A stretch of 64,000 bases of DNA, from positions 372,001-436,000 of the forward strand of contig CANNFA010000001.1 in NCBI GenBank assembly GCA_947503765.1, in the 5' to 3' direction. The notes under the pieces are model-generated. The model made no database searches, was not told the origin of the DNA, and saw only the letters and a program-made list of their open reading frames with translations. Position 1 is the stretch's first letter. The number at the start of each line of letters is the position of its first letter. The translations under genes and the position numbers were made by a program. Positions 34,589-41,266 of this stretch are shown piece after piece. Source of the stretch: an uncultured Paracoccaceae bacterium (GTDB lineage: Bacteria; Pseudomonadota; Alphaproteobacteria; Rhodobacterales; Rhodobacteraceae).

Positions 34589-35497
34589 CTATTCGCCGAT
34601 CACCCCCTGAAACTCGCGCCATTCCCCCTTCGACATCCCCGAGTTTTCCTGCGTGACCTCCTCGCCCCTCAACATGCGCTTGATACAATCAAGCGCCTTG
34701 GCCGACAGGGTCGCGCCGCCCATCCGGTAATCCTCGAACGCGGCATAGGCGTGCGGCACCCAGTCGCGGACCATGGCGCAGATCGCCTCGGCATAGACGC
34801 GGATCTCGTATTGCGCGTGGCTGTCGGCGCGCAGGCGCAGGAAGTGGAACAGGTTGTGCAGGTCGGTCTTCCAGTACCATTGCGTGTAGATGTTCGCCGG
34901 CAGGTTCATCCGCGCCAGTTCGCGCGCAAGGCCCTGCTGGCCGTCCTGGCTGAGCATTGCCTCGTAATGGTCGTAGGCGCGCATCGAGTCGGATTTGAGC
35001 ATGTCCAGCACTCGCTCCGCCTCCGCCCCCTCCAGCACGGCGCCGCGGCCCTGGTTGTTGACGGTCGATTGCGCCGCCAGCGCGTCCGGCGCGGGAATGT
35101 AGAATTCGCGGTCGAGGATCGAGTAGCGGGCCGAGTATTCGTTGACATTCGCGGTACGGTGCCGGATCCACTGGCGCGCCACGAAAACCGGCAGCTTGAC
35201 GTGAAACTTGACCTCGCACATCTCGAACGGGGTCGAGTGCCAGTGCCGCATCAGGTAGCGGATCAACCCCGCATCGCTTTGGACATGTTTCGTGCCCGCC
35301 CCATAGGACACGCGGGCGGCCTGCACGATGGCGCTGTCGTCGCCCATGTAGTCGATGACCCGCACGAAGCCGTGGTCGAGCACCGGCGCCGCGCGGTAGA
35401 GATGCGCCTCCATCCCGTCCGACACGGCGCGCAGGGTCTGGCGGGGGGCGGCGCGGGCCGCGTCGATCTCGGCTTGCTGGTCGGGGGTCAGCGGCAT
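34589..35497 (-). CDS. thyX: FAD-dependent thymidylate synthase ThyX
   Basis: A 302-residue flavin-dependent thymidylate synthase, which makes dTMP from dUMP using methylenetetrahydrofolate and NADPH. The ThyX signature [13 protein letters not shown] sits near residue 112; [20 protein letters not shown] precedes it and [20 protein letters not shown] follows, both typical. The start at 35497 ([11 protein letters not shown]) has GAAAGGAC upstream. No thyA is visible in the window. It diverges from the lipoprotein/Slam operon over a 206-base gap. Confidence 0.96.
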
Positions 35498-35703
35498 GGT
35501 CTGTCCTTTCGGGCGGGGCGTTGCGCGAGGATACTACATCTGCGGCGCGCGAATGTAACGGGGCCGAGATGCGGTATTCCCGCCCGTGTTGCGCGTTTTT
35601 CCTGCATCACCTTCACCGCGCTGATTCGCGGCTTCGTTGACTGGACAGGCCGGCTGCGTCACCCTGTGGATAAAGAGGCAGGACATAAGAAAAGAGCAGT
35701 CTC

Positions 35704-36642
35704 ATGCGGAATTCGGTGGCGGCGCTGGCCGTCTTGAGCCTTTTGGCGGCTTGCGACGGCAATCCCCTGGTCAAGCCCGAGGAAGAGGACGTCATCGAAG
35801 AGCCTGATGAAGGGGAAGAGGTCGCCGATCCGACGATCGTTCCCGACTCGGTCGCGGGCAACCTCAAGGCGATTTCCTATGACGCGGCGGCAAAGCGGCT
35901 GTTCGTCACGATCTCCGGCATCGACGGCACCCCCGAGGCGGCCGAGTATTTCCGCAACTCGAGGGCCGAGGCCGGGCTGCCCGCGGGCTTCGAGGTCTAC
36001 ACGTTGCAGGAAGACCCGCTCGACCGGTTCTTTGCCGGCGTCATCAAGGAAAGCGGCGACGGCACGGTGCGCGCGGCGACGGTCAGCGACGGCGGCCAGT
36101 TCGGCTATTTCTTCGGCGGGACATGGTTCGAGCGCGACGGCGAATTCGACAAGCCCGATATCGGCAACGGCCCCGGCCAGGGCCAGGTCAGCTATGCCGG
36201 CGATTATGTCGGGCTGGACAATTACAGCGGCCCGGTGCCCGACCTGCCGGCAGGCACAGATCCGGCGATCCAGATGCAGTATCCCGGCCGGGTTCTGGGC
36301 GACGTGTTCGTGAACGTCAATTTCTCGGACATGCTGCTGAGTGGCGTGATCTTCAACCGCGAGGCGCTGGACAACCCGAGTATCGGGCTGAGCAACGTGA
36401 TCATCAGCCCGACAACGATCACCGAGGACGGCACGTTTCTTGGCGACGTGCAGATCGGCACGGACGATGTGGGCGACATTGCCGGGCTGTTCGGCGGCAT
36501 GGATTCCGCCTACATGGCTGGCGCGGTGGCCTTCATTCCGCTGCCCGACAATCCCGACAGCTTCGAGAACGGCGTGTTCGTCCTGACCCAATGCGGCATG
36601 AACGGCGAGGATGCCGCGCTGTGCAGCGGGACGGCGCCCTGA
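35704..36642 (+). CDS. putative surface lipoprotein (TbpB-like beta-barrel cargo of Slam)
   Basis: A 312-residue lipoprotein: the lipobox LLAAC puts the acylated cysteine at residue 17. An acidic, probably flexible linker follows (KPEEEDVIEEPDEGEEVADP). The C-terminal region has alternating strands (GDVFVNVNFSDMLLSGVIFN, NVIISPTTITEDGTFLGDVQ, IAGLFGGMDSAYMAGAVAFI), as in the small barrels of transferrin-binding-protein-like proteins, ending with a two-cysteine segment (TQCGMNGEDAALCSG). The next gene encodes a Slam-type translocator and starts 1 base after the stop, so this is its likely cargo. The ligand is unknown; iron or metal binding is only a guess from relatives. Confidence 0.75.
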   Translation: MRNSVAALAVLSLLAACDGNPLVKPEEEDVIEEPDEGEEVADPTIVPDSVAGNLKAISYDAAAKRLFVTISGIDGTPEAAEYFRNSRAEAGLPAGFEVYTLQEDPLDRFFAGVIKESGDGTVRAATVSDGGQFGYFFGGTWFERDGEFDKPDIGNGPGQGQVSYAGDYVGLDNYSGPVPDLPAGTDPAIQMQYPGRVLGDVFVNVNFSDMLLSGVIFNREALDNPSIGLSNVIISPTTITEDGTFLGDVQIGTDDVGDIAGLFGGMDSAYMAGAVAFIPLPDNPDSFENGVFVLTQCGMNGEDAALCSGTAP

Positions 36643-36643
36643 C

Positions 36644-38047
36644 ATGATGCGCCGGCTGCTGATCGCGGCCGCGCTGATCGCCGCCTGTCTCGCGCCGCCG
36701 GCGCGGGCGGAAGATCTCGCGCCGCCGGCGCGGGCAGAGGAGCTGGCCTTCAGCCTGCCCGAGGCGCGGCGGCTGGCGGTGATGGCGGGGCTTTCGGGCA
36801 ACGGCCCGGCGGCGGCACTGCTGGCGGCCGAGCTGCTGCGCCACGACCCGAAGGACGGCGCGGCCTTGCTGGCGATGGCGGCCGCGCACATGACCCGCAG
36901 CGACTGGCCCGCCGCGCTGCGCGACAGCCGGCGCGCCTTCGGGCTGACCGACGATCCGCGCTACCGCTACCAGGCTGCGCGGGTGGCCGCAGTGTCGGCG
37001 CTCGCGGGCGAGCGGCGGCTGCAATCGCAGTTCTGGCTGCGCCGGGCCGCCGACCTGGCCCCGACCGATGCGGACCGCGCCAAGATCGAACGGCAATTCG
37101 CCGCCCTGCGCGCCGAGACGCCGTGGCGCTACCGGTTCGATCTGTCCGTCATGCCGTCGAGCAACGTCAATGGCGGCGCCGACAGTCCCTACAACATCAT
37201 CGAGGGCGTGCCGCTGGTCGGGGTGCTGAGCGGCAGCGCGCGGGCGCTGTCGGGCGTCGTCGCGCAGGGCAATGCCAGCGCCAGCTACCGGTTCCACAGG
37301 ACCGACACCGCGCAGACCTCGCTGACCGGTGCGCTCTATCTCAAGCATGTCACGCTGTCGGACGAGGCAAAGACGCTGGCGCCCGGCTTCGATGCGTCGC
37401 GGCTCGGGGTGGTGTCGCTGGATTTCGGGCTGAGCCACGCGGTGCGGATCGGGCGGCCCGAGGCCGGCGCGGCGCTGCGCTTCGACGGCGGGCTGCGCGA
37501 CTACTGGCAGGGCGGCGACCGGATCTATACCGCGCTGAAGGGCGGGGCGATGTACACGGCCAGGCTGGCCGAGCGGCTGCGCTTTACCGGCCAGGTCGCG
37601 GCGCAGCGGCGGTTCTATACCGACAGCACCCATGGATTCGTCGGCTCGGTCAGCGGCGCGCTCAGTTATACCTTCGGGAACGGGGCCGCCGTGACGGCGA
37701 TGCTGGGCTATACCGCCAGCAACACGCCGAACCCCGTCTTCGACAGCACCGGCTATATCGGCAAGATCAGCTATGCGCCGGGCAAGCCGGTGCTGGGGAT
37801 GGACCTGTCGGCGGGGCTGGGTGCAAGCCATACCGATTACGCCGATTATTCGCTGGGCTTCATCCCGGTGCCCGGCGGCCGGCAGGACGATGCGCTGTTC
37901 CTCGACCTGGAGGCGACGTTCACCAGCATCGAATATGCCGGCTTCTCGCCCAGCTTGCGGCTGCGCCGGACCCTGACGCGGTCGAACGTGTCGCGCTACG
38001 ACACGGACGAATGGGCGGTCTCGGTCGGGATCGCGTCGAATTTCTGA
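36644..38047 (+). CDS. Slam-type surface lipoprotein assembly modulator (TPR plus DUF560 outer-membrane barrel)
   Basis: A 467-residue protein with a signal peptide, an N-terminal TPR-like helical domain (about 35-160: AAALLAAELLRHDPKDGAAL, AALRDSRRAFGLTDDPRYRY) and a C-terminal outer-membrane barrel (about 165-467) that opens with WRYRFDLSVMPSSNVNGGA and ends in aromatic Phe (IASNF), the usual signal for barrel insertion. This order is that of Slam proteins, which move lipoproteins to the cell surface. It follows the lipoprotein gene by 1 base. A 27-base tandem duplication at 36689-36742 repeats LAPPARAED/E right at the predicted signal-peptidase site. Confidence 0.82.
   Translation: MMRRLLIAAALIAACLAPPARAEDLAPPARAEELAFSLPEARRLAVMAGLSGNGPAAALLAAELLRHDPKDGAALLAMAAAHMTRSDWPAALRDSRRAFGLTDDPRYRYQAARVAAVSALAGERRLQSQFWLRRAADLAPTDADRAKIERQFAALRAETPWRYRFDLSVMPSSNVNGGADSPYNIIEGVPLVGVLSGSARALSGVVAQGNASASYRFHRTDTAQTSLTGALYLKHVTLSDEAKTLAPGFDASRLGVVSLDFGLSHAVRIGRPEAGAALRFDGGLRDYWQGGDRIYTALKGGAMYTARLAERLRFTGQVAAQRRFYTDSTHGFVGSVSGALSYTFGNGAAVTAMLGYTASNTPNPVFDSTGYIGKISYAPGKPVLGMDLSAGLGASHTDYADYSLGFIPVPGGRQDDALFLDLEATFTSIEYAGFSPSLRLRRTLTRSNVSRYDTDEWAVSVGIASNF
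36689..36742 (+). repeat. 27-bp in-frame tandem duplication in the Slam signal region
   Basis: Two adjacent 27-base units (36689-36715 and 36716-36742) encode LAPPARAED and LAPPARAEE. They differ at only a few positions near the end of the unit. The duplicated block includes the ARA signal-peptidase recognition triplet, so two possible cleavage sites follow one another. Confidence 0.9.
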
Positions 38048-38184
38048 ACACCGGCGCGGCGCGATCTGCCCGGCAGGCGGGGCGGCATCGTGCCCGCCCC
38101 CCGCTGGCGGCGCGGCGCATTCGTGCTAGGCTCGCCCCCGAGGCGCGCGATGCGCGATACAGACCAGGAAAAGGAGCAAGCCGA

Positions 38185-38613
38185 ATGAGCATCGAATATC
38201 TGCACACCATGGTCCGGGTGAAGGACCTGGAGAAATCCAAGGCATTCTACGAATTGCTGGGGCTGGAGGAATCGCGCCGGATGGACAACGACAAGGGCCG
38301 CTTCACGCTGCTGTTCATGTCGCCGCCGGGACAGGAAAACGCGGCGGTCGAGATGACCCATAACTGGGACGGCGACGAGGGCCTGCCCTCGGACAGCCGC
38401 CATTTCGGGCATCTCGCCTACCGTGTCGATGACATCTATGCGATGTGCCAGAAGCTGATGGATGCGGGCGTGACGATCAACCGGCCGCCGCGCGACGGGC
38501 ACATGGCCTTCGTGCGCTCGCCCGACAACATCTCGATCGAGCTGCTCCAGCGCGGCGACCCGCTGGAGCCGAAAGAGCCGTGGGCGAGCATGGAAAACAC
38601 GGGCCATTGGTAG
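38185..38613 (+). CDS. gloA: lactoylglutathione lyase (glyoxalase I)
   Basis: A 142-residue metalloenzyme that isomerises the methylglyoxal-glutathione hemithioacetal to S-lactoylglutathione. Metal ligands by family comparison are H7 (EYLHTMVRV), E56 (AAVEMTHNW), H76 (HFGHLAYRV) and E119 (NISIELLQ); all are present. Substrate segment KSKAFYELLGLEESRR matches. It is a little longer than E. coli GloA because of a C-terminal extension. AAAGGAG precedes the start. The following DUF1194 gene appears to start inside its last codons. Confidence 0.94.
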   Translation: MSIEYLHTMVRVKDLEKSKAFYELLGLEESRRMDNDKGRFTLLFMSPPGQENAAVEMTHNWDGDEGLPSDSRHFGHLAYRVDDIYAMCQKLMDAGVTINRPPRDGHMAFVRSPDNISIELLQRGDPLEPKEPWASMENTGHW

Positions 38614-39347
38614 CGCGCCGCGCGCGCGCTGCCCTGCCGGCCCGGTTGCTGTCGGCCCTGTTTCTGACAGCCGCCGGCCTGCTGGCGGCCTCTCCTTCGG
38701 GCGCGGCGTGCCGGCTCGCGCTGGTGCTGGCGCTGGACGTGTCCTCCTCGGTCGATGCGGCCGAGGACCGCCTGCAGCGCGAGGGGCTGGCCGCCGCGCT
38801 GACCGCGCCCGAGATCGTCGAGGCGGTGCTGGCGCTGCCGGACCGGCCCGTTGCGCTGACGGTGTTCGAGTGGAGCGGCCGCAACCAGCAGACCGAACTT
38901 CTGGACTGGCGCCTGCTGGACAGCCGCGCCGCGCTGTTCGGCGCCGCGCGGACCATCGCCCGCTCCACCCGGCGGCATTCGGAATTTCCGACCGCGCTGG
39001 GCTATGCGCTGGGCCATGCCGCCGGTCTGCTGGATCGCGGCCCGGCCTGCGACGCGCAGGTGGTGGACGTGTCGGGCGACGGGCGCAACAATGCCGGGTT
39101 CCCGCCCGAGCTGGCCTACCGGCATTTCCCGCTGGCCGGTGTCACGGTGAACGCGCTGGCAATCGGCGGCGCGGACGCGGATCTGCCCGGCTATTTCCGT
39201 GACCGCCTGATCCGGGGCCGGGGCGCCTTTGTCGAGGTGGCGCGCGGTTTCGACGATTTCGAGCGCGCCATGCGCCGCAAGCTGCTGCGCGAATTGCAGG
39301 TGCGCAGCGTGGGCGCGCTTTCGGGGGCCGGGGTGCATGGAGGCTAG
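38607..39347 (+). CDS. exported DUF1194 (VWA-like) protein, paralogue 1
   Basis: About 246 residues. After a signal peptide (ALPARLLSALFLTAAGLLAA then SPSGAA) the VWA-like fold begins with LALVLALDVSSSVDAAE, where DxSxS forms a metal-ion-dependent adhesion site. DVSGDGRNNAGFPPE is the second conserved segment and GFDDFERAMRRKLLRELQ the C-terminal one. No ATG fits; TTG at 38607, overlapping the glyoxalase stop, or TTG at 38646 are the candidates. A tandem paralogue follows. DUF1194 function is unknown. Confidence 0.82.
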   Translation: MVARRARAALPARLLSALFLTAAGLLAASPSGAACRLALVLALDVSSSVDAAEDRLQREGLAAALTAPEIVEAVLALPDRPVALTVFEWSGRNQQTELLDWRLLDSRAALFGAARTIARSTRRHSEFPTALGYALGHAAGLLDRGPACDAQVVDVSGDGRNNAGFPPELAYRHFPLAGVTVNALAIGGADADLPGYFRDRLIRGRGAFVEVARGFDDFERAMRRKLLRELQVRSVGALSGAGVHGG

Positions 39348-39414
39348 GGGCGCTCGCAAGGGGGCAAGGTGTGTCGGGTCGCCTGCGGCGCGCCGATCCG
39401 GCCCTCAAAGGAAC

Positions 39415-40161
39415 TTGAAGCAGGAAGACGGAAGGAAAAGCCGGCGGCGCCTGTCCCTTGCGGCCGCCCTTCTGGCGATGTTGCTTGCGGCCCCGGCCGG
39501 CGCCGCATGCCGGCAGGCGCTGGCGCTGGGGCTGGACGTGTCCGACTCGGTGGATGCGCGGGAATACCGGTTGCAGATGGACGGGTTGGCCGGGGCCTTG
39601 CTGAAGGGCGAGGTGCAGCAGGCATTCCTCGCCTTCCCCGACGCGCCGGTGCGGCTTTACATCTTCGAATGGGCCGGAAGCGGCAGCCGGCGGCTGATCC
39701 TGGACTGGCACGAGATCGCTTCGGCCTCCGATCTGCAGGCGGTGGCGGACTTGCTGCGCCGCACCGGGCGCATGCCGATGGACCCGGCCACCGCGATCGG
39801 CGAGGCGATGCGCGCCGGCGCCGGGGCGCTGGCCGCGCAGGGGGAATGCTGGCGCCGGGTGCTCGATCTGTCGGGCGACGGCGAGTCGAACAGCGGCGCG
39901 CGCCCGCGCGAGGTGCGCGGCGATGCGGCCTTTGCCGGGATCACGGTGAACGGGCTGGTGATCGGCCAGGTTGCGAGGGGCGGGCGGCGCTCTGCCGGGA
40001 TCGCGCAATTGCAGGCCTATTATGCCGCCGAGGTGATCCTCGGCCCCGATGCCTTTACCGAGGTGGCGCTGGGATTCGACGATTTCGAGGCCGCGATGAC
40101 GCGCAAGCTCTTGCGCGAATTGCAAAGCATCGCCATCAGCCGGCTGGACGGGCGGGACTGA
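39415..40161 (+). CDS. exported DUF1194 (VWA-like) protein, paralogue 2
   Basis: About 248 residues, clearly related to the preceding protein: signal peptide (SLAAALLAMLLAAPAGAA), MIDAS-like LALGLDVSDSVDAREYRLQM, DLSGDGESNSGARPRE and GFDDFEAAMTRKLLRELQ. I chose TTG at 39415 because it gives a normal signal peptide and AAAGGA lies just before it; ATG at 39337, overlapping paralogue 1, would add 26 residues before a long n-region. Probably periplasmic; the tandem pair may act together. Confidence 0.82.
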   Translation: MKQEDGRKSRRRLSLAAALLAMLLAAPAGAACRQALALGLDVSDSVDAREYRLQMDGLAGALLKGEVQQAFLAFPDAPVRLYIFEWAGSGSRRLILDWHEIASASDLQAVADLLRRTGRMPMDPATAIGEAMRAGAGALAAQGECWRRVLDLSGDGESNSGARPREVRGDAAFAGITVNGLVIGQVARGGRRSAGIAQLQAYYAAEVILGPDAFTEVALGFDDFEAAMTRKLLRELQSIAISRLDGRD

Positions 40162-40252
40162 CCCGGCATCCGGCACATTGCACGGGCAAGGCCGATTGGC
40201 GTCGGCGCGGCCCTGCGCTATCGTGCGGCAAGGCGAAAGAGAACGGACGGGA

Positions 40253-41266
40253 ATGACGGCGCTCGGCGATTATCAGCGGCTGGAGGCGCAGGGGGTCTGG
40301 CGCGCCTCGGCAGAGGATCAGCGGCGCGACGTGATCGTGTCGGTGGGCGACGCGACGCTGGTGGTGCATGACGGGGCCGGGCGGCCGCTGGCGCATTGGT
40401 CGCTGGCCGCGGTAGAGCGGCTGAACCCGTCGATCCGCCCGGCCCTGTACCGCCCCGGCCCCGACAGCCCCGAGGAGATGGAGCTGACCGATCCCGAGAT
40501 GATCGCGGCGATCGAGCGGATCCTCAGCGCGGTGGAACGGCGGCGCCCGCGCCGGGGGCGGCTGCGCTACCTGCTGCTTGCGGCGGGGCTGGCGGCGGTT
40601 CTGGCGGCGGCGGTGCTGTGGCTGCCCGGTGCACTGATCGGCCATGCGGCGACGGTGGTGCCCGCCGCCAAGCGCGCCGATCTGGGCGGCCGGCTCTTGC
40701 TGGAAATCCGGGCCATCGTCGGTGCGCCCTGCCGCTCTGATCTGGGCTCTGCCGCGCTGGAGCGGCTGAATACCCGGTTGCTGGACGGCAAGGGCCGGTT
40801 GGTGGTGCTGCCCGGCGGCATTGCCACGACGGCGCATCTGCCGGGCGGAACCATCATGATGAACCGGACGCTGGTCGAGGAGCACGACGATCCGGGCGTG
40901 GTGGCCGGCCATATCCTGGCAGAGGCCGAACGTCTGGCCCGCGAAGACCCCGTCGAGGTGCTGCTGCGCGCCGCCGGGCCGGTGGCGGCGCTGCGGCTGC
41001 TGACCACGGGCGATCTGCCGGAGGCGGCGCTGGCGGACTACGCGCGCACGCTGCTGGCCGCCCCGCCCGCGCCGGTGCCCGACGGCGCGCTTCTGCGCCG
41101 GTTCGCGGCGGCGGACCTGCCGGCCTCGCCCTATGCGTGGTCGGTCGATCCGAGCGGCGAGACGGTGCTGCCGCTGATCGAGGCGGACCAGGTCGATCCG
41201 GTCTATGCCCAGCCGGTGCTGCGCGATTCCGAATGGGTCAGCCTGCAGGGCATCTGCGGCGAGTGA
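40253..41266 (+). CDS. single-pass membrane protein with degenerate M48-peptidase-like domain
   Basis: A 337-residue protein: a soluble N-terminal part (1-100: VIVSVGDATLVVHDGAGRPL, a PH-like strand pattern), a basic stretch RRRPRRGRLR, one membrane helix (105-127), then a domain that follows the M48 layout: LPGGIATTAHLPGGTIMMNR, then VVAGHILAEAERLAREDP. In M48 peptidases this last position holds HExxH; here it reads HILAE (220-224), so zinc catalysis is unlikely. The start at 40253 has ACGGACGGGA upstream. Family relation is by eye and tentative. Confidence 0.7.
   Translation: MTALGDYQRLEAQGVWRASAEDQRRDVIVSVGDATLVVHDGAGRPLAHWSLAAVERLNPSIRPALYRPGPDSPEEMELTDPEMIAAIERILSAVERRRPRRGRLRYLLLAAGLAAVLAAAVLWLPGALIGHAATVVPAAKRADLGGRLLLEIRAIVGAPCRSDLGSAALERLNTRLLDGKGRLVVLPGGIATTAHLPGGTIMMNRTLVEEHDDPGVVAGHILAEAERLAREDPVEVLLRAAGPVAALRLLTTGDLPEAALADYARTLLAAPPAPVPDGALLRRFAAADLPASPYAWSVDPSGETVLPLIEADQVDPVYAQPVLRDSEWVSLQGICGE

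Follow-up and report, generated by a model that had tools for sequence, protein, structure and literature searches.

A probable two-gene T11SS (Slam) lipoprotein and channel pair between thyX and gloA in a Rhodobacterales-type genome

T11SS is a young secretion-system family. Slam1 has been described as the translocon and Skp as the holdase (PMC9090332), and TonB-dependent receptor genes were found in 120 of 185 lipoprotein-bearing Slam clusters (Hooda et al. 2017; PMC5449769). The closest described relative of the locus studied here is the marine cluster 3 T11SS locus, already reported from Rhodobacteraceae/Roseobacteraceae by Grossman et al. 2025 (PMC12282271), where predicted cargo amounted to 0.21 per outer-membrane protein (OMP) by sequence criteria and a cargo lipoprotein was predicted in 10 of 11 inspected loci. 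Those authors considered reading the whole locus as one module and asked whether cluster 3 has other cargo (e.g., DUF1194); the sections consulted describe no experiment on cluster 3. Among the matches listed in the open-access literature, no experimental study of a Rhodobacterales T11SS was found, and one may exist.

Here, we analyzed a window of 64,000 nucleotides (positions 372001-436000 of contig 1) from a 3.98-Mb host genome in 30 contigs that is reported to be 100% complete. Our reading, in which we have high confidence, is that the window holds a two-gene T11SS (Slam) cassette of the published marine cluster 3 locus, i.e., a lipoprotein and a channel that probably moves it to the surface, with no TonB receptor partner; that the pair is inherited as one unit between thyX and gloA; and that thyX, gloA, and DUF1194 are unlikely parts of it.

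The locus and its two protein families

An earlier note on this DNA had described a lipobox protein lying 1 nt ahead of a TPR plus barrel protein in a Rhodobacterales-type host; both open reading frames (ORFs) were found in place (Table 1), and the host assignment was supported. The cargo stop codon (36640-36642) is separated by one base from the channel ATG at 36644, while a channel start at the in-frame ATG further upstream (36611) would make the two genes overlap and is less likely. The thyX gene is divergent from the pair, and gloA and two DUF1194 genes, the sole DUF1194 matches in the host genome, lie to its right. Further on, 3' of the DUF1194 genes, a 362-aa ORF (40178-41266) had no Pfam match, and its homologues occupy the same locus in L002 and L003 (67 and 65%) and in L124 (70%). 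A promoter and terminator scan of 35300-38300 found nothing. The named relatives found for the pair were two Maritimibacter records (L002 and L003), whose channels are 57 and 56% and whose cargoes are 60 and 58% identical to those of the window.

Table 1. Coordinates of the cargo and channel pair and its surroundings, counted from the first letter of the window
Feature	Position	Strand	Description
Cargo lipoprotein (putative), 312 aa	35704..36642	+	Lipobox LAAC (Cys17), acidic linker, C-terminal E-x-G-V-F-V-L, then a 19-residue tail with two Cys
T11SS/Slam outer-membrane channel (predicted), 467 aa	36644..38047	+	Signal peptide, TPR region, SlipAM (DUF560) barrel, terminal Phe; assigned on a family-level basis
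thyX, flavin-dependent thymidylate synthase, left flank	34589..35497	-	PF02511, 192.6 bits
gloA, glyoxalase family, right flank	38185..38613	+	PF00903, 68 bits
DUF1194 gene 1	38445..39347	+	PF06707, 229.8 bits; listed start lies within gloA, the true one probably farther 3'
DUF1194 gene 2	39229..40161	+	PF06707, 217.5 bits; listed start overlaps DUF1194 gene 1, true start probably further downstream
Left intergenic region	35498..35703		thyX-proximal part resembles the empty site of the same-genus genome G152
Right intergenic region	38048..38184		17-bp match at the gloA side of the G152 empty site; -10-like GCTAGGCT

Cargo and channel were each aligned in 65 rows, comprising the window, L002, L003, and 62 of 80 fetched channel loci; these rows were mostly loci with an upstream lipobox-pattern gene and whole-looking ORFs, and the cargo and channel selections overlap but are not identical. 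The N-terminal signal of the window cargo ends in a signal peptidase II lipobox, the Cys of which was invariant in 65 of 65 aligned cargoes (rows preselected by a lipobox filter) and was conserved together with the C-terminal E-x-G-x-F strand. In the window cargo this strand is followed by a long tail, a subtype that accounts for 15 of 50 classified cargoes. Searched alone, the window cargo had no family match in profile searches, whereas the NCBIfam model NF041636 ("Slam-dependent surface lipoprotein") matched 17, FHBP_C matched 10, and TbpB_B_D matched 7 of the 65 cargo homologues; of 10 homologues searched singly, two matched FHBP_C, over 29 residues and below the cut-off, and none matched TbpB_B_D. 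The cargo profile returned a single match from the PDB, at an E value of 0.2. The NF041636, FHBP_C, and TbpB_B_D matches give fair support for assigning the cargo family to the Slam cargoes. The earlier view that the cargo lacks close likeness to host-protein binders, for which a TbpB B/D profile search had been proposed, thus held for the window protein, which matched neither that model nor any other, but not fully for the family, in which each of the three models was matched by some members.

The window channel scored 18 bits against SlipAM (PF04575, DUF560), below the cut-off of 22, whereas 48 of 65 channel homologues matched this model at E<=0.01 (best 4.2e-11), and the L002 channel, at 22.7 bits, exceeded the cut-off. 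Of 10 channels searched singly, five were above the cut-off, with L049, L053, and L058 covering nearly the whole model and L002 and L089 part of it. Similarly, the window channel alone gave no TPR match, and TPR models were found among the 65 homologues (TPR_19 in 30, TPR_16 in 25, and TPR_14 in 24). The channel profile reached TPR proteins and TPR-containing designs in the PDB (best 60 of 107 matches) near model positions 36-93, and searches of the PDB with the single window proteins gave nothing meaningful; together with the cargo profile result, the sequence searches thus led to no solved structure of a Slam protein or of a cargo. NCBIfam returned no Slam model for the 65 channels and mainly TPR-type names (SctY chaperone in 35 of 65). 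A terminal Phe was present in at least 90% of the 65 channel rows. A GldD_lipo reading of the window channel (22.8 bits, cut-off 27) was also considered and was rejected because the match covers a 34-residue stretch and was found in 1 of 65 homologues. Overall, membership is clear for the channel family and marginal for the window proteins taken alone, and the Slam-type channel with lipoprotein cargo proposed earlier is borne out by the family-level SlipAM and Slam-cargo matches.

Pairing and co-divergence of cargo and channel

We then asked how constant the pair is across 295 genomes of the window's family. A channel homologue was detected in 143 of them (single-sequence search, E<=1e-5) and a cargo in 136 (profile A4, E<=1e-6); both occurred in 132 genomes, the channel only in 11, the cargo only in 4, and neither in 148. 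Cargo homologues were therefore present in 132 of 143 channel genomes against 4 of 152 others, with the 11 remaining channel genomes lacking a cargo detectable by the profile search. By the cargo profile, 128 genomes have the cargo as the gene immediately 5' of the channel and in the same orientation; the profile was built from part of the sampled genomes, 66 of these 128 being outside it. A single-sequence cargo search, free of this circularity, found the cargo in 55 genomes, all of which carry the channel, and the pair was adjacent in all 55. By a strict pattern, an upstream lipobox protein was present at 46 of 60 channel loci picked without a single-sequence cargo match and at 19 of 20 picked with one; 68 of 83 channel loci had an upstream sequence that fitted the lipobox pattern. 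The survey of relatives suggested in the earlier note thus shows that the pairing exceeds chance and is near-universal in the sampled family, where the channel nearly always stands beside a lipoprotein cargo gene.

Several loci depart from this layout. In L045, L056, L071, L074, and L087, a channel homologue stands in a stretch where neither thyX nor gloA nor a cargo was detected, and in L087 a DUF1194 gene adjoins the channel homologue. The L057 channel is away from thyX and gloA, yet its cargo is present. In L062, L068, L073, and L082, the channel lies 459, 185, 266, and 320 bp from thyX, respectively (match positions), which leaves little or no room for a cargo. L147 (oriented 1579-2658) has a cargo between thyX and gloA in a genome with no channel match, and its channel may have been lost.

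Having established the pairing, we compared how the genes of the locus diverge. Channel and cargo distances were correlated (r 0.47, p 0.0005, 55 loci; 0.43 in the 52 loci that leave out the window, L002, and L003), and neither was detectably correlated with thyX/gloA in the 55 loci (channel r -0.05, p 0.80; cargo r 0.04, p 0.23). The distances of thyX and gloA correlated with each other in the same 55 loci (r 0.24, p 0.0005), so some flank signal was there to be found; this control correlation was weak in 40 loci with thyX but no pair (r 0.11, p 0.10). On the channel tree, the tail subtype of the cargo required 3 changes, a number that none of 300 shuffles reached (mean 13.1); on the flank tree, which is poorly resolved with 12 of 52 branches starred, it required 12, matched or undercut by 100 of 300 shuffles (mean 13.0). 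By these distances and trees, cargo and channel diverge together and independently of their flanks. For channel presence, a flank tree of 102 loci gave 24 changes, matched or undercut by 2 of 300 shuffles (mean 31.8), so that presence keeps some kinship signal. Between L002 and L003, dN/dS was 0.22 for the cargo, 0.24 for the OMP, 0.04 for both thyX and gloA, and 0.11 for the next ORF.

The site itself was also seen without the pair. In the same-genus genome G152, thyX and gloA enclose an empty site of 194 bp, the left part of which aligned locally to the left intergenic region of the window with a score of 45 (best of 300 shuffles, 28); the 17-bp match on the right, with a score of 29 (best of 300 shuffles, 30; 95th percentile, 24), is suggestive only.

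Neighbors, receptors, and alternative readings

The published counts in 145 cluster 3 loci (DUF1194 102, glyoxalase 89, and thymidylate synthase 77; PMC12282271) invite the reading that the whole locus is one module, with the T11SS acting in folate/one-carbon, glyoxalase, or metal (nickel) metabolism and DUF1194 being either its partner or another cargo. We examined this against the 116 genomes that have thyX but no channel match, from which 40 thyX loci were fetched, roughly by thyX similarity and with some skipped. All 40 pair-less loci carried thyX together with gloA, at most 400 bp apart in 35 of them by tblastn gaps (with gloA reversed in one of these, L149). The other five hold something in between, namely an ORF of 275-310 aa in L135, L139, L143, and L148 (at about 900-2400, oriented), which was DUF817 (PF05675) in both loci tested (L135 and L143), and the cargo in L147; the thyX-gloA interval thus appears to accept different inserts. 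DUF1194 was near gloA in 59 of 73 channel loci and, among the pair-less loci whose sequence extended far enough, in 22 of 37 (Fisher p 0.022, kinship uncorrected), so that a weak association with channel presence remains. A kinship-aware comparison showed no link (8 pairs only, median p 1, too few to decide). The divergence of DUF1194 followed thyX/gloA (r 0.21, p 0.0035) and was not correlated with that of the channel (r 0.05, p 0.21) in 43 loci, and in both Maritimibacter records the block of gloA, the two DUF1194 genes, and the next ORF, 3' of the channel, is inverted relative to thyX, cargo, and channel, unlike in the window. A -10-like TGCTAG before gloA was enriched over shuffles, though found in a minority of loci, both with the pair (18 of 75; shuffles 2.0) and without it (6 of 40; shuffles 1.0). 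Because all pair-less loci keep thyX with gloA and DUF1194 divergence tracks the flanks, the association with thymidylate synthase, glyoxalase, and DUF1194 that has been published appears to reflect inherited background gene order, not shared function. We therefore rejected a metabolic module with thyX/gloA, and regard the one-module reading of the locus as unlikely.

Two further alternatives concern the pair itself. Some members of the cargo family match TbpB/fHbp models, and receptor genes are frequent in the Slam lipoprotein clusters of Hooda et al. (PMC5449769), both of which would fit a TbpB-like bipartite nutrient receptor whose TonB-dependent receptor is encoded elsewhere. However, no TonB-dependent receptor barrel was found beside the pair, in agreement with the earlier note, or anywhere else in the host genome by a search with PF00593 only, which in a control matched 3 of 14 genomes, including E. 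coli and Caulobacter. Across the 295 genomes, a PF00593 receptor was present in 81 of the 143 genomes with a channel and in 86 of the 152 without one (odds ratio 1.00), i.e., pair and receptor are independent. Iron piracy with a TonB receptor was rejected on these two results, and the bipartite-receptor reading is largely refuted for the window genome and, in our view, highly improbable; a missed divergent receptor would revive it. Alternatively, the lipoprotein could face the periplasm, with the second protein being an unrelated porin or assembly factor. By the E. coli Lol rule, Asp at position +2 of a lipoprotein signals inner-membrane retention. Twelve of 68 cargoes, including that of the window, carry Asp at this position, which under this rule is one point against surface delivery. 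The family-level SlipAM and Slam-cargo matches and the co-divergence of cargo and channel speak against a periplasmic lipoprotein beside an unrelated protein, and we consider that arrangement improbable.

A Slam-type pair that probably displays its lipoprotein thus remains our preferred explanation, based on family-level homology, pairing, adjacency, co-divergence, and no detectable dependence on flanks or TonB receptors. Mechanistically, by analogy with described members of the family, from which the export mechanism, the surface location, and the barrel folds are taken, the cargo would be exported by Sec and lipidated at Cys17, held in the periplasm before translocation, recognized by the channel through its C-terminal region, and passed through the DUF560 barrel to the cell surface, where it would stay lipid-anchored with its N-terminal part displayed. 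The lack of a detected receptor barrel in the host genome suggests that the pair uses the Slam pathway independently of TonB. More tentatively, and with considerable doubt, we hypothesize that the pair is a swappable surface-display cassette that is exchanged or lost as a unit among related lineages at one fixed thyX-gloA site, which elsewhere is empty or holds DUF817. Close relatives would then differ in their surface lipoproteins irrespective of their core genomes, with phages, grazers, or hosts as possible sources of selection, and the lipoproteins would serve a role other than TonB-driven uptake. Rapid divergence combined with repeated loss may account for the same patterns instead of cassette exchange, since resolution of the flank tree is poor and the channel distances (median 0.70) approach saturation.

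Comparison with described systems

The pair shares with Neisseria Slam1/Slam2 and their cargoes TbpB, LbpB, and HpuA (PMC5449769, PMC9090332) the arrangement of a lipoprotein cargo gene adjoining that of a DUF560 outer-membrane protein, as well as the likeness of part of the cargo family to TbpB/fHbp barrel models; it differs in being distant in sequence and in that the search of its host genome yielded no receptor barrel. NilB and T11SS cluster 1 (PMC8406197) likewise represent a DUF560 OMP family, one that exports lipoprotein or soluble cargo, but cluster 1 is mainly animal-associated, whereas the window comes from a Rhodobacterales-type lineage.

The closest is cluster 3 of Grossman et al. 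(PMC12282271), in which a flavin-dependent thymidylate synthase, a cargo lipoprotein (282-375 aa), a T11SS OMP, a lactoylglutathione lyase, and DUF1194 stand in one locus, in the same bacterial families and with TonB-dependent receptors rare nearby. From this match by gene set, we infer that the window locus is a member of their sequence-similarity network cluster 3, and the suggestion of the earlier note that it is an undescribed free-living Slam system is accordingly not supported. The two studies differ in the frequency of cargo, with 0.21 predicted per OMP there and the cargo family in 132 of 143 OMP genomes here, and in the reading of the neighbors, which were taken there as possibly functional, while the pair-less control here argues for background gene order. 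To the published description, the present work adds this neighbor control and the findings that pairing is near-universal in the family sampled, that cargo and channel are inherited jointly, and that no TonB partner is detectable.
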